From contig PBLA01000014.1 in assembly GCA_002722245.1 (NCBI GenBank), positions 1 through 64,000 on the forward strand: a stretch of DNA of 64,000 bases, in the 5' to 3' direction. The translations under genes were made by a program, and so were the position numbers. This DNA is from Flavobacteriales bacterium. Its GTDB lineage: Bacteria > Bacteroidota > Bacteroidia > Flavobacteriales_C > GCA-002722245. Positions 10,354-61,995 of this stretch are shown here, one piece after another. The notes beneath the pieces are model-generated. The model was not told where the DNA came from. It ran no database searches and worked only from the letters and a program-made list of their open reading frames with translations. Position 1 is the stretch's first letter; every line of letters starts with the position of its first letter.

Positions 10354-11526
10354 ATGAAAATAATTAATTTATTTATATTTCTGTTTTTATTTAAAGTTTC
10401 CAGCGCCTTTTATATTGTAGGGTACTTGCCTTCTTATCGGTTTTATCTTTTAGATGAAATAACTTTTTCTAACCTTACTCATGTGATGATTTCGTTTGTA
10501 AATCCTAATGGAGAAGGAAACTTTTCCTATTCTAAAAGTATTTCTTCCGTGATTGATAAGGCGCGGCCGAATGGGTGTAAAGTTTTTGTTTCTATTGGTG
10601 GCGGTGGTTTGTCCGATGAGATTGAGCATATCTACCGCGAACAAACAAAAACTGAAAACAGAGCTCAATTCATTTCAAACTTAATGCGTTTTGTGCGAGA
10701 AAAGCATGTTGATGGTATAGATGTAGATTTAGAGGGTTCAATGGTGCAGATGTCAACATACAATGGATTTGTAAAAGAGTTAATTGATTCTGCTCATGCT
10801 TTTAATATTGAGGTAAGTGCTGCGTTTGCGAAGTGGACAGGGGCATCAGTTGATCAATCTACAATCGAAAAATTTGATTTTATTAATTTGATGTCTTATG
10901 ATTATACTGGGCCTTGGTCAACTGAAGGACAACATGCACCCATGAGTCAGGTAAAGGGAGATTTTAACTACTGGAGGGAGAGAGGTGCGCAGCCCGAAAA
11001 CTTGGTTGTTGGATTACCATTTTATGGCTATCAATTTGATGCTGAATCCACCTCAGCAAAAACATGGTGTGAAATTGTAAACAATTATCCAGATAGTCTT
11101 AATCAAGATGAAATCTTTACCGATGAAGGAACGTTGTATTTTAATGGGAAAATGACAATTCAAGAAAAGCTTGATTTTATTGATGATAATAATGCAGGAG
11201 GTGCAATGATTTGGGAATTAGGTCAAGATTGTTTTAATGAACAATCCATGTTGTCGTTTATTATACAACATAGGAAAGAAGCAAACATTGTTGAAAATCA
11301 AAAGAAATCGAGAGAGATGGTGTTTTTTCCAAATCCATCCTCTGGTGTGTTTAATACGAAAGGTTTAGGCGAATTTAAATTCGAGGTTTATAACCTAAAA
11401 GGAGAGTTATTGGAAAGCGGTATTAATGCAGATCAACTAAATTTAGAAAGGCTTTCGTTTGGTGTCTATCTAGCGGTTATTGAGAAGGAAGGTCAACGAA
11501 TAACTTGTCGACTGGTAATACAGTAA
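10354..11526 (+). CDS. Secreted GH18 chitinase with T9SS type A sorting domain
   Basis: A 390-residue glycoside hydrolase family 18 enzyme, which cleaves chitin or related GlcNAc polymers by substrate-assisted catalysis. After a signal peptide (about 1-18) comes the barrel, with SIGGGG at 80-85 and the catalytic DGIDVDLEG at 120-128, where Glu127 is the proton donor. MSYDYTGPW supplies further substrate-site residues. From about residue 315 a C-terminal module (FFPNPSSGVF, ending CRLVIQ) is a T9SS type A sorting domain, so export to the surface or medium is expected. The machinery genes lie 13-20 kb downstream. It could instead be a relative acting on other GlcNAc glycans. Confidence 0.92.
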   Translation: MKIINLFIFLFLFKVSSAFYIVGYLPSYRFYLLDEITFSNLTHVMISFVNPNGEGNFSYSKSISSVIDKARPNGCKVFVSIGGGGLSDEIEHIYREQTKTENRAQFISNLMRFVREKHVDGIDVDLEGSMVQMSTYNGFVKELIDSAHAFNIEVSAAFAKWTGASVDQSTIEKFDFINLMSYDYTGPWSTEGQHAPMSQVKGDFNYWRERGAQPENLVVGLPFYGYQFDAESTSAKTWCEIVNNYPDSLNQDEIFTDEGTLYFNGKMTIQEKLDFIDDNNAGGAMIWELGQDCFNEQSMLSFIIQHRKEANIVENQKKSREMVFFPNPSSGVFNTKGLGEFKFEVYNLKGELLESGINADQLNLERLSFGVYLAVIEKEGQRITCRLVIQ

Positions 11527-24106: not shown

Positions 24107-27100
24107 CTAACGCAGTAGAACAAGCTTTTCAATAACTTCTTCCTTATCACCATTTGCATTGATTACACGTACTTTGTATACATAAACTCCTCTTCCAATT
24201 GGCGAACCAAAATCATCTAAGCCGTCCCATTGAACAGGGCCAATTCTGGTAGACGTGGCATCAAAACTATCGGAAATGGTTTTGATCAACTTACCAGAAA
24301 TAGTGTATATTTCAATTGTTATATCTAATACATCATTGGTTTGATTATGCTCAAAATAAAAACCAGTTGAAGTAGTGAATGGGTTAGGGTAATTTAACAC
24401 GTTAGTTAAGGCAAGTTGAGGGTTGTTTTCGATGATAAATTCTGTATACGCTTTTGACGAATTGTTTTGGTTATCGAACACTTTAAAAACGAGGCTATGT
24501 CTGCCTTCATCCAGCTCTTCAAGGGGGAAAATAATTTCACCTTTTTGATAAGTGCTTTTTGAAGGTTGATAATATTGGTTGAGTAAGAAATTTAAATCAG
24601 ATCGTTCATCAATGATCAAAGTAATATCTTTACCTACATCATTTGGTATAATATTAATACCACTTGAATCAAATAAGTCAGCAATGAAAATGGGGGAGGA
24701 GGATACTTTATCTCCAAATGCGAATAATGAATCATCTAGATGGATGTTAATTTCTGGTCCATTTCGATCAATTGATGCATTTTTAGCAGTTCCTCCAATT
24801 ACAATCGACTCATTGTTTCCCGAGGCATCACCTAAAATAGAGTCCACAGCATAAAAGCTAAAACGAGCAAAACCATAGTTTTGACGTGTGTCTTTAGGAA
24901 TATAAATTTGACTCTTAAATCGGCCATTTTCAACAAAAGCTTTTCCTTTAAACAGAATGTCTTCTTGACTGGCATAAGTGAAAGGGCCGGCAGTTTGATC
25001 ATCACCAAGAGTTGTAATCTCTTTCTCTTTGTCAAAAAGAGTGATATCTATCCAACCATTAAATTCATTGACAGTTGAACCAAATAAATTTTCGATATGA
25101 CCAAAAATTTCAGGAGAAGATAACGCCTTTATACTGTCATTGTTTTCACTATTCACAAGGCTATCTAATTGTACTTTATAAAGTGGAACGGCAAGTTTTA
25201 TTGCTGGATCACCTAATAATGTGAAATTTCGATCATTAACGCCTCCATTATTTTCAACTTTTGTTTTTCTGAATAAATCACCTATTGTGATTTTTCCGTC
25301 TTTAATAGAGGCATCAAGTACCTTATAAAATGTTTCGTTTAATCGGAAATTAGGAATAGAGAAAACCAACCTCACGGTCGTAAACAAAGCGATTGCTCCG
25401 CCTTCTGGTTGAAGCAGTAATCGTTCCCCGGCACTCACATTCTCTGGATTGTCAAACCTGCTGAATTCGCATGTTGCTGTCATAAACAAAGGAAGTTTAT
25501 TCCTGTTTTTCATGTCCGAAATATCCTTCAACAGAAAAATTCGCTCGGACGTCCAGCCTCTCTCTCCTCCATGACCGGTGTAATTTGCAATGAGTGCACC
25601 GTTGTGAAGTTGTTGGATTAATTTTTCGTTAGCAATTGGCGATATTTTTCCAAGGCTTGAAGCCTCTTGAGGGTATGCGTCTAGAAAAATCTTTTTTGCA
25701 TTGAAGTTGCGAATTGTGGAGTCCACGCGTTGGGATAAACTATTGGATTGACGCATATGTTCATTAAAATCTTCGTCATCAGCAATAAATAAAATGTCAT
25801 TTCTCCAAGAACCTTTTGAGGAAAGAAGTGTTTGCTCTTTCTCTTTAATTAATTCTGAAAATTGGTATTCATCATAATATTCGTAAATTTTGTCAATGAT
25901 TAATTTCGCTTGATTTTCATTTTCAACGGGTAATCTTCCTACTGCAATATCAAGTAAATCACCGTTCAAATACTCTCCCTCACCTTGGTCTAATAAACCA
26001 TAAAAGTCATCGGTCACATATGAGCTTGTTAACTTAATTGAATTGATTGATTGGAAGGTAGGGATGGGATTAGTATTATTAGTTATTCTGTTTTTAGGAT
26101 CATAACTTCCTTCTCCCATTAAGAGAACGTATTGCAAAGAATCGGCTGTTTCATTTCCCTTTTTATACAATAACTGAATGAAATTTCTAATTCCAGAAGC
26201 CTCCGGTCGTCCGCAGGAAAATTCATTAAAGATTTCCTCTACAAAAAACAATTGCCCTGACAGTTGATCTCTTCTGGTATGCAAATCAATTAGTCTTTGC
26301 GCTTCTAATTTAAATTCAGGAGTTGTTATAATAATGTAATTAGAGGGAGAAGAATTGTGTAAATTTTGGTTAGGAACGTGGCTTACAAAATCAGGAGATG
26401 GATAGTTTTTATTTTCTACAATAATGAATTTTTTTACAGTGTCAATCAAGGAAACAAATGTAAATCCTGAGTCATCGTTGATTGTAGGGATTGAAGAAAC
26501 ATTAAAAAGATTGCTTATATCCCAAACGTCAATATTATTGAGATCGGATTTCACATGAATTTTAGTATTTAAATCAGTAGGAGTAAAAAGCGAAATCGTC
26601 CTTTTGTTGTGTTTAGTAGAGATTCGCTCAACGTAGTTCACGGTTAGATAATCTAACCAAGCCAGCGGATTACTTTCTTGATGATAATATAGTTTTAAAT
26701 TTACGGAGTCATCATTAAATTCATATTGTGGAAGCGTGACTTCTTTCGTGGAGAATTTCACATAATCATTATAATATACAGAACTGACTTTGTTCATTTT
26801 AGCCACGCTAATAGTATCTTTCTCCAATAAAACGGATATTTTATTATCCAAAAGTTGACTGCTTCGCGAGCACACTCTATACTTAACCTTTAAATCCTTA
26901 TTAGATAAAGGGGGGCTTATTGGAAATGATAATTCAATTGGATTTTTCGTAAAAGGATCACCAATCCAATCTCTTCCACTCCTTATAAAATTGGTTTGCT
27001 CTATTTCATGATGAAAATAGTGCTCACAGTCATATATTGTTGTTTCCTCAGGGAGCGTGTTTTCATTATTAACTACCTTATTTGATGTAGCGTCAATATT

Positions 27101-27892
27101 CAAGAAAATAAAATTAGTGTCTGAGTATAAATTAATTTCTTTCTTAATAAAATTATCACTGGAGTCCTTTTTAACATTGCCGTCTGCATTTGCGTAAAAA
27201 ATCATTGAACTGAATTCATTAAATGTGTTACTGCTCAGATTCCTGAATTGTAACGGTATTTCTTTCAGATCTTCCATCCTTTTAGAGCCAATAATAAAAG
27301 GAAGCATCTCTGATGTGTTTGAGAAGATGGCAAGTTGAGTGTGTGCTATAGGCTGACTGAGAATATTTAACTCTTTGAGCTGCTGATAGGTTATTTCGTA
27401 AACCCCACTTTTAGGTATCTTGAATTTAAACCATTTTCCTGATGATAAAACAGAATTTATAATTTCCTCAGTAGTTTTGAATGGCAGGCTAGAATTTTTC
27501 GATGGATTTAGTTTTAGTTTAAGGGTTACTATTTTTTTGCGTTGACCATTAACACTTATAAAGGGGTAAATATTAATTGTTGTTTTTGGTCTACCTTTTT
27601 CAAACCCTTTTTTTAGTTCAATATGTGGTTCATTCGGCCAATACCAATTCTCTATTTTACTTGAAAATGTTTCGGAAGAAAGTGAATGAATAGCATAGAG
27701 ATCAAAATGTCCATCCATTAATAAAGATTTATACGGGATAAGCGAGTCATTTAATCGATAATCATCAAATAGATAGATAGACTTGTTGTTTGTGATGTTT
27801 TTTAGCGCATAATTGTTAAAATCAAATTGAACAATTTGACTCATTACTGTAACATGTATTAAAAACAATATGTAAGCGAAGAGAGTGCGCAT
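24107..27892 (-). CDS. porU: Type IX secretion system C-terminal signal peptidase/sortase
   Basis: PorU is the surface sortase of T9SS: it removes C-terminal signals from cargo and attaches cargo to the cell surface. The 1261-residue length fits. A signal peptide (about 1-20) and N-terminal beta domains are followed by the gingipain-type (C25) peptidase core, with YVLLMGEGSYDP, catalytic His774 in TGHGGERG and catalytic Cys808 in TATCEFSRFDN. A C-terminal domain (NYPNPFTTSTGF... VYVYKVRV) resembles a T9SS signal, as is usual for PorU. ATG 27892 is preferred over TTG 27913 because it opens the signal peptide. It is divergent from porP and lies near gldJ, a known neighbour in Flavobacteria. Confidence 0.94.
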   Translation of the reverse strand: MRTLFAYILFLIHVTVMSQIVQFDFNNYALKNITNNKSIYLFDDYRLNDSLIPYKSLLMDGHFDLYAIHSLSSETFSSKIENWYWPNEPHIELKKGFEKGRPKTTINIYPFISVNGQRKKIVTLKLKLNPSKNSSLPFKTTEEIINSVLSSGKWFKFKIPKSGVYEITYQQLKELNILSQPIAHTQLAIFSNTSEMLPFIIGSKRMEDLKEIPLQFRNLSSNTFNEFSSMIFYANADGNVKKDSSDNFIKKEINLYSDTNFIFLNIDATSNKVVNNENTLPEETTIYDCEHYFHHEIEQTNFIRSGRDWIGDPFTKNPIELSFPISPPLSNKDLKVKYRVCSRSSQLLDNKISVLLEKDTISVAKMNKVSSVYYNDYVKFSTKEVTLPQYEFNDDSVNLKLYYHQESNPLAWLDYLTVNYVERISTKHNKRTISLFTPTDLNTKIHVKSDLNNIDVWDISNLFNVSSIPTINDDSGFTFVSLIDTVKKFIIVENKNYPSPDFVSHVPNQNLHNSSPSNYIIITTPEFKLEAQRLIDLHTRRDQLSGQLFFVEEIFNEFSCGRPEASGIRNFIQLLYKKGNETADSLQYVLLMGEGSYDPKNRITNNTNPIPTFQSINSIKLTSSYVTDDFYGLLDQGEGEYLNGDLLDIAVGRLPVENENQAKLIIDKIYEYYDEYQFSELIKEKEQTLLSSKGSWRNDILFIADDEDFNEHMRQSNSLSQRVDSTIRNFNAKKIFLDAYPQEASSLGKISPIANEKLIQQLHNGALIANYTGHGGERGWTSERIFLLKDISDMKNRNKLPLFMTATCEFSRFDNPENVSAGERLLLQPEGGAIALFTTVRLVFSIPNFRLNETFYKVLDASIKDGKITIGDLFRKTKVENNGGVNDRNFTLLGDPAIKLAVPLYKVQLDSLVNSENNDSIKALSSPEIFGHIENLFGSTVNEFNGWIDITLFDKEKEITTLGDDQTAGPFTYASQEDILFKGKAFVENGRFKSQIYIPKDTRQNYGFARFSFYAVDSILGDASGNNESIVIGGTAKNASIDRNGPEINIHLDDSLFAFGDKVSSSPIFIADLFDSSGINIIPNDVGKDITLIIDERSDLNFLLNQYYQPSKSTYQKGEIIFPLEELDEGRHSLVFKVFDNQNNSSKAYTEFIIENNPQLALTNVLNYPNPFTTSTGFYFEHNQTNDVLDITIEIYTISGKLIKTISDSFDATSTRIGPVQWDGLDDFGSPIGRGVYVYKVRVINANGDKEEVIEKLVLLR

Positions 27893-28061
27893 TAAACTGA
27901 AAAGAATGTTCAACTTAAAAATACGTGTTTATGTTTAAGAAATTGCTTTAAGTGTTACTTTTTTAACATTGCTTTGTTAAGCATTAAAAAAAGTGAAGAA
28001 GGTTCCGAATTATTGATTTCGGTAAATATTCATTATAATTGTACATTGTAAAGTTTTGTAT

Positions 28062-29072
28062 ATGTGTAAAAGAAACTTGCTTTTAGCGTGTGTAGTATTG
28101 TTCGTATCAGTGTTTTTTGTAAATGAAGTAAAGGCACAAGACCCAGAATTTACTCAGTTTTACGCCAATCCACTTTATTTAAACCCTGCTTTCGCGGGAA
28201 GTTCAAGATGTCCTAGAATGGTTATGAATTATCGTAATCAGTGGCCAGGAATAAATAATACCTATATTACCTATTCTGCTTCATATGATCAACATGTGGA
28301 TGCACTTTCTGGTGGATTTGGAATGTTGGTAACCAATGACCAAGCAGGTGACGGTACTATTAACACGACCAATGCAAGTATGATTTACTCATATTATCTA
28401 CCGGTTACTAACACGTTCTCTGTGAAAGCTGGAATTCAAGCTACATATGCTCAAAAAAGTGTTGACTGGAGTAAACTTAATTTTGGTGACATGATTGATA
28501 ATAAATTCGGATTCACCCTAAATACTAATGAAGTAAATCCAAATAGAACAGTAACGAATGTTGATTTTTCCGCGGGAATCTTAGGATACAGTTCATCTTT
28601 CTTTATAGGCGGTGCGGCCCATCATTTATTAGAGCCAGATGAAGCTTTTATAACTCAGGGTACGAGTCCATTACCAATGAAAATAACTGCTCATACCGGA
28701 GCTATTATTCCTGTAGGGAATCAGAGTGCAAAGTACAGAAGAAGGCGAAGAAGAAACGCAAACACATTACCGGAAAGTTCCGTTTCGCCTAATATACTTT
28801 ATCAAAAACAAAAAGATTTTCAGCAACTTAATTTGGGTCTTTACGTTACTAAAGGGCCAATTGTTGGTGGATTATGGTACAGAAATCAAGATGCTTTTAT
28901 CGTTTTGGTTGGATTAATGACTACCAATTTTAGATTTGGATACAGTTATGACGTAACCGTATCTAGGCTGAGTAATGCTACTGCAGGGTCTCATGAATTG
29001 TCTATGACAATTCAGTTTAACTGTAGACCAAAGAAGAAGAAATTTACTCCTGTGAGTTGTCCTTCTTTTTAA
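28062..29072 (+). CDS. PorP/SprF-family T9SS outer-membrane protein
   Basis: A 336-residue outer-membrane beta-barrel of the PorP/SprF family. These proteins act with T9SS and often help secrete or anchor a specific type B cargo. The signal peptide ends near VKAQD. The conserved opening EFTQFYANPLYLNPAFAGS is diagnostic, and the NYRNQWP motif follows. ATG 28062 is chosen over TTG 28056. A polybasic stretch (KYRRRRRRN) near residue 228 is an unusual loop. It is divergent from porU and followed by gldJ after 76 bases. In other genomes PorP/SprF proteins pair with large CHU_C proteins; the only such protein here is the one at 16806-21689. Confidence 0.9.
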   Translation: MCKRNLLLACVVLFVSVFFVNEVKAQDPEFTQFYANPLYLNPAFAGSSRCPRMVMNYRNQWPGINNTYITYSASYDQHVDALSGGFGMLVTNDQAGDGTINTTNASMIYSYYLPVTNTFSVKAGIQATYAQKSVDWSKLNFGDMIDNKFGFTLNTNEVNPNRTVTNVDFSAGILGYSSSFFIGGAAHHLLEPDEAFITQGTSPLPMKITAHTGAIIPVGNQSAKYRRRRRRNANTLPESSVSPNILYQKQKDFQQLNLGLYVTKGPIVGGLWYRNQDAFIVLVGLMTTNFRFGYSYDVTVSRLSNATAGSHELSMTIQFNCRPKKKKFTPVSCPSF

Positions 29073-29148: not shown

Positions 29149-30639
29149 ATGAGAAAGTTGGTTACAAAGTGGTTTAAATTAAGTGTGTATTTATTTATTG
29201 GTGCCCTAATTTTAAGCTCCTGTAGAAAAGAGATTTCAAACACTACAGGTTGGACGGTAAATAATCCTAAAAATGGAGGTTTTGAGGTTGTGCCATTTTA
29301 CGAACAAGAAACAGGTCCTGGATTAATTCTTGTTGAAGGAGGACGATTTACTATGGGAGCCGTTGAACAAGATGTTGTTCATCAATGGAATAATGTTCCT
29401 AGAACTCAGTCAGTATCCTCTTTTTACATGGATGAAACGGAAATTAAAAATGTGGATTGGAGAGAATATGTGTATTGGTTAATAAGAATATACGGTGCAG
29501 ATTATCCTCAAGTATGGGTAAACGCATTACCTGATACATTAGCATGGCGAGATGAGTTAGCCTTTACAAAGCCCTATGTAGAACTTTATTATCGTCACCC
29601 AGCTTATTCTGAATACCCTGTTGTGGGTGTGACTTGGTTACAAGCTACAGATTATTGTGTTTGGAGAACAGATAGAGTAAATGAGTGGATTTTGATCAGG
29701 GAAGGAATACTAAAAACGAATCCTAACCAGGTGAATGAAGATAATTTTAACCTTGATACTTATTTAAAAGGTCAATACGAAGGGTTAGTAAAGGATGAAA
29801 TGCTCGATTTAAACCCGAATAATGAATTTAGAAAAGTACGTATTGAGGATGGAATTCTCTTGCCTAGATATCGTCTACCAACTGAATCTGAGTGGGAATT
29901 TGCTGCGTTAGGGTTAATTGGGAATACTATCGATGAACGTATTTTGGATAGAAGAGTTTATCCATGGAATGGACACTGGGTTCGTAATAAAGAAGATACG
30001 TGGCAGGGGGAAATGATGGCCAACATTACACGAGCTAAAGGAGATTACATGGGGGTAGCCTCAAGATTAAATGATGCCGCTGATATTACTGCGCCAGTTA
30101 AGTCTTATTGGCCTAATGATTATGGGTTATATCAAATGGCTGGAAATGTTTCAGAATGGGTAATGGATGTTTACCGTCCATTAACTTTAGAAGACGCAAA
30201 TGAATTCCGATCATTTAGAGGTAATGTTTATGATACATATGCCAAAGATGCTGATGGATATTACTTAGAAAAGGATTCGTTAGGAAAAATGGTAATGCGA
30301 AATGTAGACATTAAAAACCCTGAGGATGAATTAGAAAAAAAGCGAAATTACAAGAAATCGCAAAACATTGATTTCTTAGATGGGGAGTTTTCTTCTTCGG
30401 TATATTACAACGATGAAGGGATGGCAGATCCATCTAAAACGAATAAGCTAATGTATGAAACAAAGACACATTCATTACAGTCGAATCATACAAGAGTGTA
30501 TAAAGGAGGAAACTGGAAAGATCGAGTTTATTGGATGGCTCCTGGTTCAAGAAGATTTTTGGATGAAGACCAGGATCAAGATAATATAGGATTTAGATGT
30601 GCGATGCACAGAGTAGGAAAGCCTACTTCCTGGGAATAA
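29149..30639 (+). CDS. gldJ: Gliding motility lipoprotein GldJ, copy 1
   Basis: GldJ is an outer-membrane lipoprotein needed for gliding and T9SS function. This copy has 496 residues, with a lipoprotein signal ending at the Cys in LILSSCRKE (Cys25) and then a formylglycine-generating-enzyme-like (FGE-sulfatase) fold. The segments EQETGPGLI, GGRFTMGAV and SFYMDETEIKNV match GldJ rather than GldK. The terminal GGNWKDR...IGFRCAMHRVG closes the fold. A second, closely similar copy follows, and a strong terminator between them suggests separate transcripts. The porU-gldJ neighbourhood matches that known in Flavobacterium. Confidence 0.92.
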   Translation: MRKLVTKWFKLSVYLFIGALILSSCRKEISNTTGWTVNNPKNGGFEVVPFYEQETGPGLILVEGGRFTMGAVEQDVVHQWNNVPRTQSVSSFYMDETEIKNVDWREYVYWLIRIYGADYPQVWVNALPDTLAWRDELAFTKPYVELYYRHPAYSEYPVVGVTWLQATDYCVWRTDRVNEWILIREGILKTNPNQVNEDNFNLDTYLKGQYEGLVKDEMLDLNPNNEFRKVRIEDGILLPRYRLPTESEWEFAALGLIGNTIDERILDRRVYPWNGHWVRNKEDTWQGEMMANITRAKGDYMGVASRLNDAADITAPVKSYWPNDYGLYQMAGNVSEWVMDVYRPLTLEDANEFRSFRGNVYDTYAKDADGYYLEKDSLGKMVMRNVDIKNPEDELEKKRNYKKSQNIDFLDGEFSSSVYYNDEGMADPSKTNKLMYETKTHSLQSNHTRVYKGGNWKDRVYWMAPGSRRFLDEDQDQDNIGFRCAMHRVGKPTSWE

Positions 30640-30778: not shown

Positions 30779-32266
30779 ATGAAAAGAAGTTCAATAACAT
30801 ATACACTCTATGTAAGCTTTTTTCTATTCCTAATACTATTTAGTTCGTGTAATAAAAAGGTATCATCATCGACCAATTGGACTTTAAATGACTCAAAAAA
30901 TGGGGGGTTCCAGGTAGTGCCATTTTATGAGCAGGAAACAGGTCCTGGATTAATATTAATAGAAGGAGGTCGATTTACCATGGGAGCTGTTGAGCAAGAT
31001 GTTGTTTATCAATGGAATAATGAACCCAGAACGCAATCGGTATCTTCTTTTTATATGGATGAAACGGAGATAAAGAATGTTGATTGGCGGGAATATGTAT
31101 TTTGGCTTAATCGTGTTTATGGTGCAGATTACCCCCAGGTTTGGGTAAGTGCTTTGCCGGACACATTGGCTTGGAGAGATGAATTGGCCTACACTGAACC
31201 TTATGTTGAATTGTATTATCGCCATCCTGCCTATTCCTCTTATCCTGTAGTAGGCGTGTCCTGGTTACAAGCAACTGATTATTGCGTTTGGAGAACTGAT
31301 CGAGTAAACGAATGGATTTTAATTAAGTCTGGAATTCTCAAAACCAATCCAAATCAGGTTAATGGGGATAATTTCAACCTTGATACTTATTTAAAAGGGC
31401 AGTATGAAGGGCTTGTAAAGGATGAAATTTTAGATTTAAATCCCAATAATGAATTTAGAAAGGTACGTATTGAAGATGGTATACTATTACCTAGATACCG
31501 TTTGCCAACCGAAGCAGAATGGGAATTCGCTGCATTAGGTTTAATAGGGAATACAATTGATGACCGTATTTTAGATCGAAGAGTTTATCCATGGAATGGA
31601 CATTGGGTAAGAAACAAAAAAGATGTTTGGCAAGGTCAAATGATGGCAAATATTACCCGAGCAAAAGGAGATTACATGGGGTTAGCCTCTAGCTTAAACG
31701 ATGGCGCAGATATTACAGCCCCCGTTAAGTCCTATTGGCCTAATGACTACGGTTTATATCAAATGGCAGGAAATGTATCGGAGTGGGTAATGGATGTTTA
31801 TCGTCCTCAGACGCTCAATGATGCTAATGAGTTTAGATCTTTTAGAGGAAACGTTTATGAAACCTATGCAAAAGACGCTGATGGATATTATTTAGAAAAA
31901 GATTCATTAGGTAAAATGGTTATGCGAAATGTTGATGTGAAAAATCCTGAGGACGAGCTTGATAAAAAAAGAAATTATAAGCGTGCTCAAAATATTGATT
32001 TTTTAGATGGTGAATTTTCCTCATCCGTGTATTTTAATGATGATGGAATGGCTGATCCTTCTAAAGAAAATAAACTAATGTATGAAACGAATATTCATTC
32101 CTTAATTTCAAACAAAACAAGAGTTTATAAAGGGGGTAATTGGAAAGATAGAGCATATTGGATGGCTCCAGGGTCAAGGAGGTTTTTAGATGAGAATCAG
32201 GATCAAGATAATATTGGTTTCAGGTGTGCGATGCACAGGGTGGGTAAGCCTACTTCATGGGATTAA
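30779..32266 (+). CDS. gldJ: Gliding motility lipoprotein GldJ, copy 2
   Basis: A 495-residue paralogue of the preceding GldJ. By eye about nine in ten mature residues are identical, while the signal peptides differ (this one ends LFSSCNKK) and codon third positions differ widely. That pattern means an old duplication under purifying selection rather than a recent copy or assembly artefact. The FGE-sulfatase-type fold is intact, with the same end (RVGKPTSWD against SWE in copy 1). It lies beyond a terminator and so needs its own promoter; none with a perfect -7 box was found in the gap. It may replace or complement copy 1 in the GldJ ring. Confidence 0.92.
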   Translation: MKRSSITYTLYVSFFLFLILFSSCNKKVSSSTNWTLNDSKNGGFQVVPFYEQETGPGLILIEGGRFTMGAVEQDVVYQWNNEPRTQSVSSFYMDETEIKNVDWREYVFWLNRVYGADYPQVWVSALPDTLAWRDELAYTEPYVELYYRHPAYSSYPVVGVSWLQATDYCVWRTDRVNEWILIKSGILKTNPNQVNGDNFNLDTYLKGQYEGLVKDEILDLNPNNEFRKVRIEDGILLPRYRLPTEAEWEFAALGLIGNTIDDRILDRRVYPWNGHWVRNKKDVWQGQMMANITRAKGDYMGLASSLNDGADITAPVKSYWPNDYGLYQMAGNVSEWVMDVYRPQTLNDANEFRSFRGNVYETYAKDADGYYLEKDSLGKMVMRNVDVKNPEDELDKKRNYKRAQNIDFLDGEFSSSVYFNDDGMADPSKENKLMYETNIHSLISNKTRVYKGGNWKDRAYWMAPGSRRFLDENQDQDNIGFRCAMHRVGKPTSWD

Positions 32267-54952: not shown

Positions 54953-57109
54953 ATGAGGATTTTCATAATTAACCTTCACGGATTAGTCAAAGGAAGTGGA
55001 CTCGAAATAGGAAGAGATGCCGATAATGGTGGTCAAACTAAGTATGTTTTTGAGTTGGCTGAATATTTATCACAACATGATGATGTGACACATGTTCATT
55101 TGTTTACCCGAAAAATAAAAGATCCGGAAGTCTCTCGAGAATATGGAGCGACCATTGAAGAAATCAATCCTAAATTTGATATCAGGCGAATTGAGTTTGG
55201 TGGTTTTGATTATAAGATGAAAGAGGAGTTGTGGGTGCATTTAGATGAATTTGTAGAAAATACCCTTAAACACATTGATGAATATGATATTTCTCCTGAT
55301 TGGATTCATTCTCATTACGGTGATGCAGGTTATGCTGCCGCAAGATTATCTGTTCGATTGAATATTCCGTTTGCCCATACAGGACACTCATTGGGATTGG
55401 CTAAGAAACAAAAAATGTTGGCAGCAGGAATGACCGAGGAGGAAGCGGAGAATAAATTTAAGTTTACACAAAGGATTAGTGCGGAGGAGAATGCGCTCGC
55501 TCTAAGTGAATTTATTGTAACATCAACCTATCTGGAGATTGCAGATTGGGAACATTATAATAATTATGATAAAGCTCAATTTCATGTTCAACCACCAGGA
55601 ATAGACGTTGCAAAGTTTTCACCGTATTACATTAAGGCATTTAAAGATGACGAAGACTATTTGCAACTTCAAAGAAGATATTGGGTGGGGCAAAATATTG
55701 AGAAGTTTCTAACGAATCCTAATAAGCCAGTTATTCTTGCTCTTTCAAGGCCGGATCGACGAAAAAATTTACATTTTTTGATTGAGGCTTATGGGGAGGA
55801 TAAAGAGTTACAAGCATTAGCCAATTTGGCCATCTTTGCGGGTATTAGAAAAGATATTAATACTATGCCAAATCAAGAAAAAGAGGTGCTTACTGAGCTG
55901 CTTTTACTTATGGATAAGTATGATTTATATGGTAAAATGGCTATCCCAAAAAGGCACGATATTGAAAATGAGGTTGCGCTTATTTACCAATACTGCGCAG
56001 ACAAGAGAGGCGTTTTTGCAAATATTTGTTTACATGAAAATTTTGGGTTAACAACTATAGAAGCTGGTGGTACTGGACTTCCGGTGGTGATTACAAAAAA
56101 TGGAGGGCCATCTGAAATTGTTCCTCGAATGAAAAATGGACTATTGGTTGACCCGATGGACAAGGCCGATATAACTAGAAGTATCAAAAAAATTCTGGCA
56201 AATGAGGAAAAATGGAGACGATTTAGTGATAATGGAATCATCAATACAAAGAAGCATTATAGTTGGGATGCTCATATTGAGGTTTATATTAGCTGGGTTC
56301 AAGAAAGTATAAGTCGCTCCGAACCAAAAACAGCAAAAGAACTCAATGCGCCAAAGGAACACATCAAGCATTTGAAAGAGAGTAAAAGTTTAATTATTAC
56401 AGATATTGATGGGACGTTAATTGCTCCTGAACATGGTGATCCAGGGATTGATGATTTGAAATCATATTTACAAAATCGTCCAAAAGGAATAAGTTTTGCC
56501 TTGTCTTCGGGTAGGAATTTTGATCTAGTAAAAGAAGTGGTTGATGATTATAAGTTAGATGTTGATTTTATTGTATGTTCTGTAGGTACCCAAATATACT
56601 ATGATACGGATCTTAATAGTAAAGATGAGGATTGGAGTGCATACTTGGATTTTAAGTGGGATAGGGAGAAAATTGTAAAAGCACTAAAGCCTTTAAAATG
56701 GCTTGAGCTACAAGAGGAAAATGCTCAAAATAAACACAAGATATCCTATTATTGCGATCCGGAAAAATATAATGAAGAGCGTATAAAAAACCGTCTTGGA
56801 AATGACTGGTATCACATTAATGTGATTTCTTCTCACAATCGATTTGTTGATATTCTTCCAAAAAGAGCCTCTAAGGGAAATGCAATCTTGTATCTTTGTC
56901 ATAAATGGGGACTACAGCTAAATAAAGTTTATGCATGTGGTGATTCAGGGAATGATATGGATATGTTTCGAGAACCAATTAATGGGATTGTTGTTGGGAA
57001 TGCATCAGAAGAATTGAGTCACTTAAGAACAAGAAAAAAGTTGTATGTAGCCAAAGAATTTGCGGCAGCTGGAATATTAGAAGGCTTGGAGCATTTTAAA
57101 TTAAAGTAA
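54953..57109 (+). CDS. Bifunctional sucrose-phosphate synthase / sucrose-phosphate phosphatase
   Basis: A 718-residue fusion. Residues about 1-455 form a GT-B (GT4) glycosyltransferase of the sucrose-phosphate synthase type. They show SGLEIGRDADNGGQTKYV at 15-32, the DWIHSHYGDAGYAA segment, LSRPDRRKN, and the EX7E pair (Glu362, Glu370) in ENFGLTTIEAGG. Residues about 475-718 form a HAD phosphatase of the sucrose-phosphatase type, with an intact nucleophile loop DIDGTL (484-489), SSGRN and GDSGNDMDMF. Unlike the inactive tail of plant synthases, this one should dephosphorylate its product, giving sucrose directly. It is cytoplasmic and is followed after 3 bases by a GH32-like gene. Confidence 0.9.
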   Translation: MRIFIINLHGLVKGSGLEIGRDADNGGQTKYVFELAEYLSQHDDVTHVHLFTRKIKDPEVSREYGATIEEINPKFDIRRIEFGGFDYKMKEELWVHLDEFVENTLKHIDEYDISPDWIHSHYGDAGYAAARLSVRLNIPFAHTGHSLGLAKKQKMLAAGMTEEEAENKFKFTQRISAEENALALSEFIVTSTYLEIADWEHYNNYDKAQFHVQPPGIDVAKFSPYYIKAFKDDEDYLQLQRRYWVGQNIEKFLTNPNKPVILALSRPDRRKNLHFLIEAYGEDKELQALANLAIFAGIRKDINTMPNQEKEVLTELLLLMDKYDLYGKMAIPKRHDIENEVALIYQYCADKRGVFANICLHENFGLTTIEAGGTGLPVVITKNGGPSEIVPRMKNGLLVDPMDKADITRSIKKILANEEKWRRFSDNGIINTKKHYSWDAHIEVYISWVQESISRSEPKTAKELNAPKEHIKHLKESKSLIITDIDGTLIAPEHGDPGIDDLKSYLQNRPKGISFALSSGRNFDLVKEVVDDYKLDVDFIVCSVGTQIYYDTDLNSKDEDWSAYLDFKWDREKIVKALKPLKWLELQEENAQNKHKISYYCDPEKYNEERIKNRLGNDWYHINVISSHNRFVDILPKRASKGNAILYLCHKWGLQLNKVYACGDSGNDMDMFREPINGIVVGNASEELSHLRTRKKLYVAKEFAAAGILEGLEHFKLK

Positions 57110-57112
57110 ACT

Positions 57113-58585
57113 ATGTATACCGGGAGTGGATTTACCGATTGGGAGATCGGAGATGTTGAGGTTCATGTTCATGATGGCTTGTACCATCTTTTTCATTTAA
57201 TTATTCCTAATCATGATTATATAGCCCATGCTGTGTCTGAAGATGGAATTTCATGGAGCAGGGTAAAGAATGCCTTGTTTGTTGGTGATCCAGGCGAGTG
57301 GGATGATGATATGCTTTGGACAATGGATGTTGTGGATTGCGAAGATGGATCATTTGAGATGTTTTACACTGGACTACAGTTGGAAGATCGAGGTGTTAAT
57401 CAAAAAGTTGGAAGAGCTGTATCAAAAGATTTAATGACTTGGAAAAAAACACATACAACTGAACTTCCTATAGAGTCATTAGGTCCTTATTATGAAAGTT
57501 TAGAAAATAATCCAAGAACTTGGTTGAGTTTTAGAGATCCTTTTTTGTATAAACATGGGAATAAAGATTACTTGTTGATTTGTGGTAGAGCTAGCGCAGG
57601 ACCTGTGTACCGAAGAGGATGTGTTGCAACATACGAAAGAAGAGAGAACGAGTTTTTGCCCGTGAAACCTCTTGTTTTCCCTCTGGCATATGATGATATA
57701 GAATGCCCTTGTTTAATAGAGTTACAAGGAAGGTTTTTTTTAATAGGGTCAATACGAGAAGACATAAAAGTGCGCTACTGGTATGCTGACTCTTTTGATG
57801 GTGAATATCAGTCCTTTCATCAAGATGTTTTGATGCCACAAGGGAATTATGCTGCAAGAGTTGTTAAGGATGGAACACATAACTTAGTATATGGATTTTA
57901 TTTTTTGGATCGACAGGTAAATTCTAAAAGAGTATTACCACCGCCAAAGGAATTAGCAGTTAATGAGGACGGTAAGCTCTATTTAAAGTCGTTTTATAAA
58001 TGGCAAGAAAAAATTATTAAAACCTACACGCAGGCTGCTTTCCCCAAAGTAGAGAGGATGTATAATAATCCAACATCAAAATTTGATGATATTAATGGAA
58101 AGTGGTGGATGACATCTCGTTCGGGGTATGAACTGTTTACTTTTGAACGAATTTCAGAAGCTTATATTTGGGAAGGTACAATAACGATGGAAGGCATGGG
58201 GAAGTGTGGTTTGCTTCTTGCCGAAGGAGATGATGGGAGTGGTTATTATATTTCATTAGATTTTAAAAGCGGTTATGTGCAAATAAGGGCATGGGGATTT
58301 AATCCAAATGACCCACAAAATAATTTTGTATTCAAAAATCTTCAAACTAATCAGTTTATTGCCAACAGCAATTATGCCCTTGATTTTAAATTAATTCGAT
58401 ATGGGCATTATATCGAATTATCAATTGATAATATAGTTAAGCTAACACTGATTGATTACAAGTATTCTGAATCGAGAATAGGATTTTACTCCGCCTCTTC
58501 TATAATCACGTTGTCAAACTCTAGGTATAGCATACTTGAAGATCCAATTATGGAATATGGAACACAAGAGAGTAAAATCGATTAA
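57113..58585 (+). CDS. Cytoplasmic GH32-like sucrose/fructan hydrolase
   Basis: A 490-residue protein without a signal peptide. The N-terminal five-bladed propeller has the GH32 landmarks RDP at 141-143 (LSFRDPFLY) and EC at 197-198 (DIECPCLIEL). The first blade carries Asp14 in WEIGDVEV, a candidate nucleophile although the classical WMNDPNG motif is not intact. A C-terminal beta-sandwich (about 325-490) fits family architecture. Coupling to sucrose-phosphate synthase suggests turnover of intracellular sucrose, but a phosphorylase or transferase of a neighbouring family is possible. It overlaps bshC by 29 bases. Confidence 0.75.
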   Translation: MYTGSGFTDWEIGDVEVHVHDGLYHLFHLIIPNHDYIAHAVSEDGISWSRVKNALFVGDPGEWDDDMLWTMDVVDCEDGSFEMFYTGLQLEDRGVNQKVGRAVSKDLMTWKKTHTTELPIESLGPYYESLENNPRTWLSFRDPFLYKHGNKDYLLICGRASAGPVYRRGCVATYERRENEFLPVKPLVFPLAYDDIECPCLIELQGRFFLIGSIREDIKVRYWYADSFDGEYQSFHQDVLMPQGNYAARVVKDGTHNLVYGFYFLDRQVNSKRVLPPPKELAVNEDGKLYLKSFYKWQEKIIKTYTQAAFPKVERMYNNPTSKFDDINGKWWMTSRSGYELFTFERISEAYIWEGTITMEGMGKCGLLLAEGDDGSGYYISLDFKSGYVQIRAWGFNPNDPQNNFVFKNLQTNQFIANSNYALDFKLIRYGHYIELSIDNIVKLTLIDYKYSESRIGFYSASSIITLSNSRYSILEDPIMEYGTQESKID

Positions 58586-60285: not shown

Positions 60286-61995
60286 TTATTTCTTTACGAA
60301 AGTAACAGTTCCAGCATTAGACTTTCCGGTCATTTTTGCAACGTATATTCCAATAGGAAGATTTGAGATATCCAATGAAGCTTGTGAGATACTATTTGTG
60401 AAATTATTGCTTGTGACAACCTGTCCGTTAATATTAACAATTTCAATATTTTTCACATCCTCAATACCAACAAAAGTTATTATAGTATTTGCAGGATTAG
60501 GATATACAGTTACATAATCTAAAGAATTAATTAATTCACCAGTTGATGTAATGGTACACGCAGGGAAGTTTTCAGTGCCGGTAGTTTTGGAGTTTGTTGG
60601 ATCTGCTGAAAAATCAACTCCAGAAATAGTTACTGTTTGATCGTAAATATCGGTAATTCTGAATGATTTTGTCGCTTCATTCATTGAGACACCTGAACTT
60701 TCCCAGCCGTTATCGGTACCTCTTGTTAAAGAGAACCAAGAACCGTCTTGCTGAACTTCAACATTTTTGATTCTGTTTACATGATTGGACACAATAACTT
60801 TTGCGTACCATTGATTTGACCCTTCTACAATTAAATCAATTGGCGTACTCCACGGACATGAAACTTCCTTCCATGTAAAATCATCGATACCTACAGATTC
60901 ATCTCCAATAACGGCATTAAATGCTGCGGGCGATAAGTCAATATCCCCGAATTTAGTATTGGTTCCAACTAATTTATTTCCATTAGCATCTCTATCCCAG
61001 CAGTCAGGGCATTCATCAACGATTTGTACTATTGCAGTACCAGCAGCACCAGTAGCCTCAACACACATCCCACAGTATTTAGCATCGTCATCTTCTTGTA
61101 ATTTTCCGATATCTAGTGCACCATATTTAGATCCTACGATATCATCTCTTTGAAAAGAACATCTAACAAGTCCTGTATACAAATGGTGTTCAGTATCTTC
61201 TAAGTTTACATACCAAGTAGCTTTTCCTTCATCATTAACAGAGGTGCAAGATTCTCCACCGTTGTCACCACCGTTGTCACCACCATTGTCACCACCATTG
61301 TCACCGCCGTTGTCACCACCATTGTCACCGTCGTTGTCGCTTGAACCAGCGTCAGCACCAAAAAGAACTGATATTACTTCGAAAGTTACTCCTTGAGCAT
61401 CTGAAGCATATCCTATAGATTCAATAGAGCTTTTTCCAGACCAAGAACTCCAAACAGTAGCGTCTATCTCATTAAGATCAAATGTAAAAGTTTCTTCTCC
61501 AGCTCCCGAAAATGTATGTTTACACGGAATGTTTCCATAAGAACCATCATTGATATCATAAGTTGATGAGCTGGGAGACCAATCTCCACCAGATCCTAAC
61601 CATACATAGAAATCACCAGCACCACTTGCATTTACAGTTAAAGTAATTTTTGAGTTGCTAGACATATCTATGCCTTCTGTAGACTTTAAGTTTGAACATT
61701 GAGCCGATGCTCCCTCACCAACAACTGTAGGTAGGTCAAACCAAGCTGGAGAGGTGTTCCATGCACCACTTTCAGTAGTAGAAAGTGTAAAAGGTCCTGA
61801 GCTTGGCAGGTATATACCTGAGTTGTCAAAGTTTCCTCCATGTGTTCTAACTCCACCATTAGTACAACAGTTTAAATAGCAGTTAGAAGAAGCATCCGTG
61901 TTATTTAACGTGTACCCGTCTCCTGCCTGATTCATTTGAGCTGAAGCTGCTAAGGCTACAGTTCCCAATGCAGTTAAAAGTAGATTTTTAATCAT
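60286..61995 (-). CDS. Secreted expansin-like protein with T9SS type A sorting domain
   Basis: A 569-residue exported protein. A signal peptide (about 1-19) is followed by a Cys-containing beta-rich N-terminal domain (about 20-215) that I cannot name, and a GDNG-repeat linker (about 220-247). A double-psi beta-barrel follows (about 258-378), with ATWYVN, CGMCVEATG, DECPDC and GDIDLSPAAF, where Asp353 or Asp351 is the candidate catalytic-site residue. A CBM63-like expansin domain (about 380-465) and a T9SS type A domain (YPNPANTIITFVG, ending VTFVKK) complete it. Expansins loosen cellulose-containing walls without hydrolysis. A GH45-type endoglucanase is the main alternative for the barrel. 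Confidence 0.85.
   Translation of the reverse strand: MIKNLLLTALGTVALAASAQMNQAGDGYTLNNTDASSNCYLNCCTNGGVRTHGGNFDNSGIYLPSSGPFTLSTTESGAWNTSPAWFDLPTVVGEGASAQCSNLKSTEGIDMSSNSKITLTVNASGAGDFYVWLGSGGDWSPSSSTYDINDGSYGNIPCKHTFSGAGEETFTFDLNEIDATVWSSWSGKSSIESIGYASDAQGVTFEVISVLFGADAGSSDNDGDNGGDNGGDNGGDNGGDNGGDNGGESCTSVNDEGKATWYVNLEDTEHHLYTGLVRCSFQRDDIVGSKYGALDIGKLQEDDDAKYCGMCVEATGAAGTAIVQIVDECPDCWDRDANGNKLVGTNTKFGDIDLSPAAFNAVIGDESVGIDDFTWKEVSCPWSTPIDLIVEGSNQWYAKVIVSNHVNRIKNVEVQQDGSWFSLTRGTDNGWESSGVSMNEATKSFRITDIYDQTVTISGVDFSADPTNSKTTGTENFPACTITSTGELINSLDYVTVYPNPANTIITFVGIEDVKNIEIVNINGQVVTSNNFTNSISQASLDISNLPIGIYVAKMTGKSNAGTVTFVKK
61255..61338 (-). repeat. Seven 12-base repeats encoding the GDNG linker
   Basis: Seven near-identical 12-base units (coding-strand sense GACAACGGTGGT with A/G third-position variants) encode the Gly-Asp-Asn-Gly linker between the N-terminal domain and the barrel. 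Such minisatellites can change copy number. Confidence 0.9.

Follow-up and report, generated by a model that had tools for sequence, protein, structure and literature searches.

Gene organization of the window

The window analyzed in this study, a stretch of 64,000 nucleotides from a Flavobacteriales bacterium (genome G000), carries on its minus strand a 569-aa open reading frame with an ATG start, which spans exactly positions 60286-61995. The parts of this gene, together with the genes of the type IX secretion system (T9SS) and a glycan-degrading enzyme in the same window, are listed below.

10354..11526, plus strand: GH18 chitinase-family protein with a T9SS tail (profile match)
24107..27913, minus strand: PorU T9SS sortase (1113.7 bits, cut-off 420)
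28056..29072, plus strand: PorP/SprF-family T9SS membrane protein (profile match)
29149-30639 and 30779-32266: tandem GldJ-like genes, whose proteins are 88% identical and each score slightly below the curated cut-off for GldJ
60286..61995, minus strand: expansin predicted to be exported by the T9SS, complete gene, 569 aa (ORF and profile matches)
61939..61995, minus strand: typical signal peptide, aa 1-19, MIKNLLLTALGTVALAASA followed by Q (predicted by eye from the sequence)
61348..61938, minus strand: N-terminal domain, aa 20-216, beta-rich, Cys-containing, without family match
61252..61347, minus strand: Asp/Gly-rich linker with GGDN repeats (12-base tandem repeat, TRF 61256-61338)
60847..61254, minus strand: expansin D1, double-psi beta-barrel (DPBB), aa 248-383, with D327 and D353 (profile, alignment and structure model)
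60553..60846, minus strand: expansin D2, CBM63-type, aa 384-481 (alignment, and Foldseek on the structure model)
60289..60513, minus strand: T9SS type A C-terminal sorting domain, aa 495-569 (Pfam and NCBIfam)

The T9SS type A sorting domain claimed in the original prediction was recovered by both TIGR04183 (E = 8e-11) and Pfam Por_Secre_tail (E = 2e-12), each exceeding its cut-off. The presence of PorU implied that the export machinery exists in the window genome, and the combination of signal peptide, type A tail and PorU marks the protein as a putative T9SS cargo. A flavobacterial host with a T9SS chitinase, also part of that prediction, was borne out by PorU, PorP/SprF and GldJ and by the T9SS-tailed GH18 gene. 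A promoter and terminator scan revealed nothing exceeding shuffled sequences.

The N-terminal domain, which had been described as Cys-containing and unassigned, indeed gave no Pfam, NCBIfam or PHROGs match, and among 395 Bacteroidia genomes a homolog was found in G009 only. Its AlphaFold model, built from two sequences, was of low confidence (pLDDT 51), and the weak Foldseek matches, none with E ≤ 0.001, were mostly to jelly-roll carbohydrate-binding modules (CBM16, CBM4, CBM22 and CBM11), so that the domain is possibly a module of this kind.

Identification of the expansin core

The expansin core of the protein comprises aa 248-481. The NCBIfam model NF041144 (expansin_EXLX1) matched it over model positions 28-187 of 194 with E = 7e-27 and 94 bits, which is a full-length match to D1 plus D2 though just under the curated cut-off of 100 bits. 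This cut-off was passed by one domain of a paralog on contig C32 (100.5 bits) and by members in five other genomes of the family. Taken singly, Pfam Expansin_C (22.1 bits, cut-off 24.6) and DPBB_1 (16.4 bits) each remained under cut-off in the window protein, and the Expansin_C cut-off was reached in the C32 paralog (32.9 bits); since the separate D1 and D2 models fell short, identification as an expansin is based on the two-domain model together with the PDB matches and the structure.

In phmmer searches, crystal structures of expansins from Clavibacter, Streptomyces, Xanthomonas and Bacillus were matched at 6e-14 to 2e-8. An AlphaFold model of the core (29 input sequences from the window and genome contigs; pLDDT 85, pTM 0.83) showed the DPBB D1 and an Ig-like D2 packed as one unit. 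Foldseek with this model retrieved nine expansin chains from Bacillus, Xanthomonas, Talaromyces, Clavibacter and Streptomyces (E = 2.5e-17 to 9.5e-16, target TM 0.82-0.87), with both domains spanned, followed by plant expansins and then by D2-like pollen allergens and kiwellins; the best 19 matches were all expansins, expansin-domain allergens or kiwellins. The E-values for EXLX1, the T9SS tail and phmmer excluded chance. These results confirmed that the ORF encodes a real bacterial expansin, as originally described, and the profile, PDB and Foldseek matches established D2 as homologous to CBM63, which disposes of the objection that the second domain might not be CBM63.

Key residues of D1 and D2

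To compare key residues, 36 expansin domains, of which 11 belong to the window clade (both genera) and 25 lie outside it, were aligned with the corresponding segment of BsEXLX1. D71 and D82 are reported to be essential for the function of BsEXLX1 in loosening (PMC11040781, PMC5072189). The equivalents of both residues are Asp in all 36 domains as well as in BsEXLX1, and correspond to D327 and D353 in the window protein. Position 73, Tyr in BsEXLX1, is Cys throughout the 36 aligned domains, the window protein included, which indicates that Tyr73 is not a strict criterion for the family.

On the other side, the aromatic platform of CBM63 (W125-W126-Y157) and K119 are largely replaced. The window D2 retains W396 (W125) and carries Y397 (W126), V390 (K119) and D428 (Y157), so that three of the four D2 residues contacting cellohexaose in BsEXLX1 are changed and cellulose binding may be weak. 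The same holds for the whole clade: all 11 domains have Asp for Y157, Val, Thr, Ile or Phe for K119, and Tyr or Phe for W126, with W125 as the sole platform residue kept. Of the 25 domains outside the clade, 24 have Tyr and one has Trp at position 157, and 24 have Lys and one has Met at position 119. The register is fixed by an Arg that is conserved three positions ahead of residue 157, so the change to Asp is no alignment slip; three residues after position 157 the clade has an aromatic residue (Trp or Phe; W431, in the motif DNGW, in the window protein) that might stand in for Tyr157, and Phe is found there in most non-clade members too. The DPBB and CBM63-like pair of the original prediction stood as a two-domain expansin, with the correction that its polysaccharide-binding platform is not canonical. 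Judged from the aligned residues, D2 is a CBM63 homolog without the canonical binding face throughout the clade, and this change suggests a binding unlike that of plant-associated expansins.

Distribution, synteny and phylogeny

The family sample consisted of ten genomes, which represent the whole order as sampled. Expansins were found in seven of them, and every clade member scanned with Pfam carried a T9SS tail. Among 395 Bacteroidia genomes, full-length expansins were restricted to the window family and one unrelated genome (G261, SKYG53), whose expansin is also T9SS-tailed. Another 49 Bacteroidia genomes gave low-scoring matches, which covered only about model positions 36-110 and were therefore treated as RlpA-type barrels; the ORFs inspected individually, in two of these genomes (L040, L042), looked RlpA-like. 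A scan of named genomes returned Flavobacteriales-labelled MAGs (SP330, CH-Oct18, nzgw150/151) and one LacPavin MAG, then mostly Myxococcota and Chloroflexota; the habitats of the clade, as given by isolate names, are lakes, groundwater and other waters. One record titled Chryseobacterium gleum (L066, CAMBXP010000143.1) falls into the window family, which is uncultured, by its expansin and kinship, and its label looks wrong. In G007 (contig C36, L028:964-2082), a second and divergent type of expansin-like protein was noticed, which has a long D1 and the residues KWW in its D2; no close relatives of it were found among the 395 Bacteroidia genomes.

The paralog in the window genome (C32:14820-17612; L029:6821-9613) is a 930-aa protein, in which two expansin cores flank three CBM5/12-like modules (34.5 bits, over cut-off) ahead of a T9SS tail. 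Two expansin cores on a single chain look unusual.

The expansin gene of the window is neighbored by bshC and aspS, with no GH9 or GH18 gene adjoining. The locus is syntenic with contig 17 of G001, where sucrose-phosphate synthase (SPS) is 92%, the GH32-like protein 83%, BshC 57% and AspRS 95% identical. The expansin and its partner at the same locus of G001 are 54.5% identical over the C-terminal 330 columns, and their N-terminal domains are unalignable. The SPS gene of the window (54953-58585) encodes a sucrose-phosphate synthase/phosphatase fusion and is directly followed by the gene of the GH32-N-like protein (92% and 83% identical in G001, respectively), a pair that represents a pathway for sucrose or a related disaccharide adjoining bshC. 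A second syntenic expansin locus lies on C32 in G000 and C8 in G001. The two expansin cores of G001 (L063, L064) are sisters (100/100) with 79% DNA identity, compared with 62-69% for positional partners. This pairing of the G001 cores with each other, and not with their positional partners, suggests exchange of the expansin module or gene conversion between the loci.

In the tree, in which the sequences from outside the family were those matching the scan patterns plus one Clavibacter protein, the expansin domains of the window family formed one clade (support 100/99), and the SKYG53 expansin grouped with Myxococcota and Chloroflexota sequences. The position of SKYG53 outside the clade suggests two separate fusions of a T9SS tail to an expansin, and its expansin was apparently acquired independently. 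Given the limited outside sampling and the long branches of Clavibacter and SKYG53, no donor can be named. With regard to transfer, for which a phylogeny had been proposed as a check, the data showed an old clade across two genera, with the gene position conserved within the genus, rather than a recent transfer. Plasmid matches to the window protein were remote (Clavibacter, with some 31-34% identity across 30% of the query), viral matches were absent, and the locus is chromosomal and syntenic; a recent lateral transfer or a plasmid or phage origin was hence rejected.

Gene content for glycan degradation

Gene content was assessed by single-family searches (GH9, GH18 and GH5). The window genome (3.0 Mb) contains two GH9 proteins and nine GH18 matches, and the search for GH5 found none. 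One GH9 protein resembles Cel9M over the whole domain and the other is of the CelD_N type; both have T9SS-tail matches, one of them below the Pfam cut-off. The GH18 proteins of this genome that were examined in full were mostly T9SS-tailed. A TAA stop breaks one GH18 gene (G000 contig C2:41292-41909; L120:6206-7519), which suggests a pseudogene or an error of the assembly. All ten family genomes contain both GH9 and GH18, with 4-16 GH18 matches per genome, so that their co-occurrence with the expansin does not tell the substrate. G003 (about 100% complete) has no expansins but retains GH9 and GH18, so these enzymes can do without expansins.

Discussion

Expansins are regarded as proteins that loosen the fibrous polymers of cell walls but do not cleave them, and those of bacteria are usually discussed as plant-interaction factors of Bacillus, Xanthomonas, Clavibacter, Streptomyces and others. 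The window protein resembles BsEXLX1/YoaJ of Bacillus subtilis (PDB 2bh0, 3d30; Foldseek E = 2.5e-17) in its two-domain fold and in D71, D82 and W125, whereas it differs in K119 (V), W126 (Y), Y157 (D) and Y73 (C), in the extra N-terminal domain and linker, in the T9SS tail and in its Bacteroidota host. Its closest solved relatives by sequence are the expansins of Clavibacter and Streptomyces (PDB 4jcw, 9ms5; NF041144; E about 1e-13), which lack a T9SS tail. Clavibacter is plant-associated, and its plasmid expansin keeps K119, W125, W126 and Y157, unlike the window protein. In the genome scan, the nearest relatives outside Bacteroidota were cores from Myxococcota and Chloroflexota (among L071-L094), mostly 28-35% identical, which keep D71/D82 but possess the canonical K119 and an aromatic residue at 157, and which lie outside the window clade (100/99); no T9SS is expected in these phyla. 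The SKYG53 expansin (L039/L078) shares the T9SS tail and the Bacteroidota host with the window protein and differs from it in that its D2 platform is the canonical one (K, W, W, Y) and an extra N-terminal domain is lacking.

In modular bacterial expansins, the core has been found fused to GH5, to cellulose- or chitin-binding domains or to dockerins (PMC5072189). In contrast, the partners in the window family are a T9SS sorting domain, an N-terminal domain without family match and CBM5/12 modules, and the C32 paralog further departs from those fusions by its two expansin cores in one chain. No report of T9SS-exported expansins was found in the literature searched, and the text on a phylogeny of 1575 EXLX1-related sequences does not mention Bacteroidota (PMC11040781), although an earlier mention of Bacteroidota expansins elsewhere is possible. 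The distinctive features here are the T9SS delivery, the lineage-wide rebuilt D2 platform and the tandem-expansin CBM5/12 sister protein.

The most likely role is a non-lytic loosening, at the cell surface, of insoluble beta-1,4 glycans, which may be those of cellulose, chitin or another wall. We consider it probable, with good confidence, that an EXLX1-type expansin is delivered through Sec and then the T9SS to the cell surface and loosens an insoluble beta-1,4 fiber non-lytically, aiding GH9 and GH18 enzymes. In detail, the protein would leave via Sec and then the type IX system and would probably be anchored at the surface, where the N-terminal domain (probably a carbohydrate-binding module) and D2 would hold it on the insoluble fiber. 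Contacts between chains would then be loosened, and not cut, by D1 with its open groove and pair of conserved aspartates, so that GH9 endoglucanases and GH18 chitinases exported by the T9SS could reach the fiber more easily. We infer the surface anchoring, the binding role of the N-terminal domain, the non-lytic action and the synergy with GH9 and GH18. This reading is weakened by the three changed D2 residues, by G003 with its GH9 and GH18 but no expansin, and by the lack of a GH9 or GH18 gene next to the expansin gene.

The D1 barrel shares the DPBB fold of GH45, which raises the reading of D1 as a hydrolase (GH45-like or xylan-cleaving) instead of a non-lytic loosener. An Asp directly follows the T-aromatic-Tyr motif in the G001 homologs and in many myxobacterial ones, roughly where the GH45 base would be expected. 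The window protein has Val at this presumed second-Asp position (ATWYV), gave no Pfam GH45 match at E ≤ 1 and showed no GH45 among its best 19 Foldseek matches; a GH45 endoglucanase, the alternative named in the original prediction, was accordingly rejected, and a hydrolytic D1 of either kind appears highly improbable. It is also conceivable, though rather doubtful, that the protein is mainly a cell-surface adhesin, in which a fast-changing N-terminal module and D2 fasten the cell to particles, with little or no loosening. The changed D2 platform fits this, as does the contrast at one locus between aspS (95%) and SPS (92%) on one side and the expansin (54.5%, N-terminal domain unalignable) on the other, and a review proposes that expansins may anchor other activities (PMC5072189). 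However, the D1 aspartates reported to be needed for loosening are invariant in the clade, and pure adhesion would not need them.

Action on the walls of algae or plants, as originally proposed, is plausible in view of the two GH9 genes, but chitin is at least equally supported by gene content. That the expansin acts mainly on chitin from zooplankton debris, diatoms or fungi, with D2 and the extra modules re-tooled for it, is a minority possibility that we judge unlikely overall but clearly less so than adhesion. It draws on the abundance of GH18 (nine matches and no GH5 in 3.0 Mb; 4-16 matches per family genome), on the D2 aromatic and lysine changes throughout the clade and on the CBM5/12 modules of the C32 sister protein, although modules of this type bind cellulose as well. 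Alpha-chitin is reported to be bound by some two-domain expansins and single-domain loosenins (PMC11040781, PMC9888185), whereas a fusion with the CBM63 of BsEXLX1 increased binding at pH 5 to cellulose but not to chitin (PMC9888185). Also against the chitin reading, GH9 endoglucanases are present in all family genomes, and GH18 is equally present in those without expansins.

The natural remodelling of D2 in this clade provides ready-made variants for testing what D2 recognizes, and also allows testing whether loosening proteins serve the degradation of chitin or algal walls. It is possible, though less likely than not, that an old aquatic lineage of Bacteroidota has retained expansins delivered to its surface for the breakdown of chitin or algal fibers, with a sugar-binding face rebuilt away from plant cellulose. 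If true, expansin-type loosening would serve the breakdown of chitin or algal fibers in water, far from land plants.
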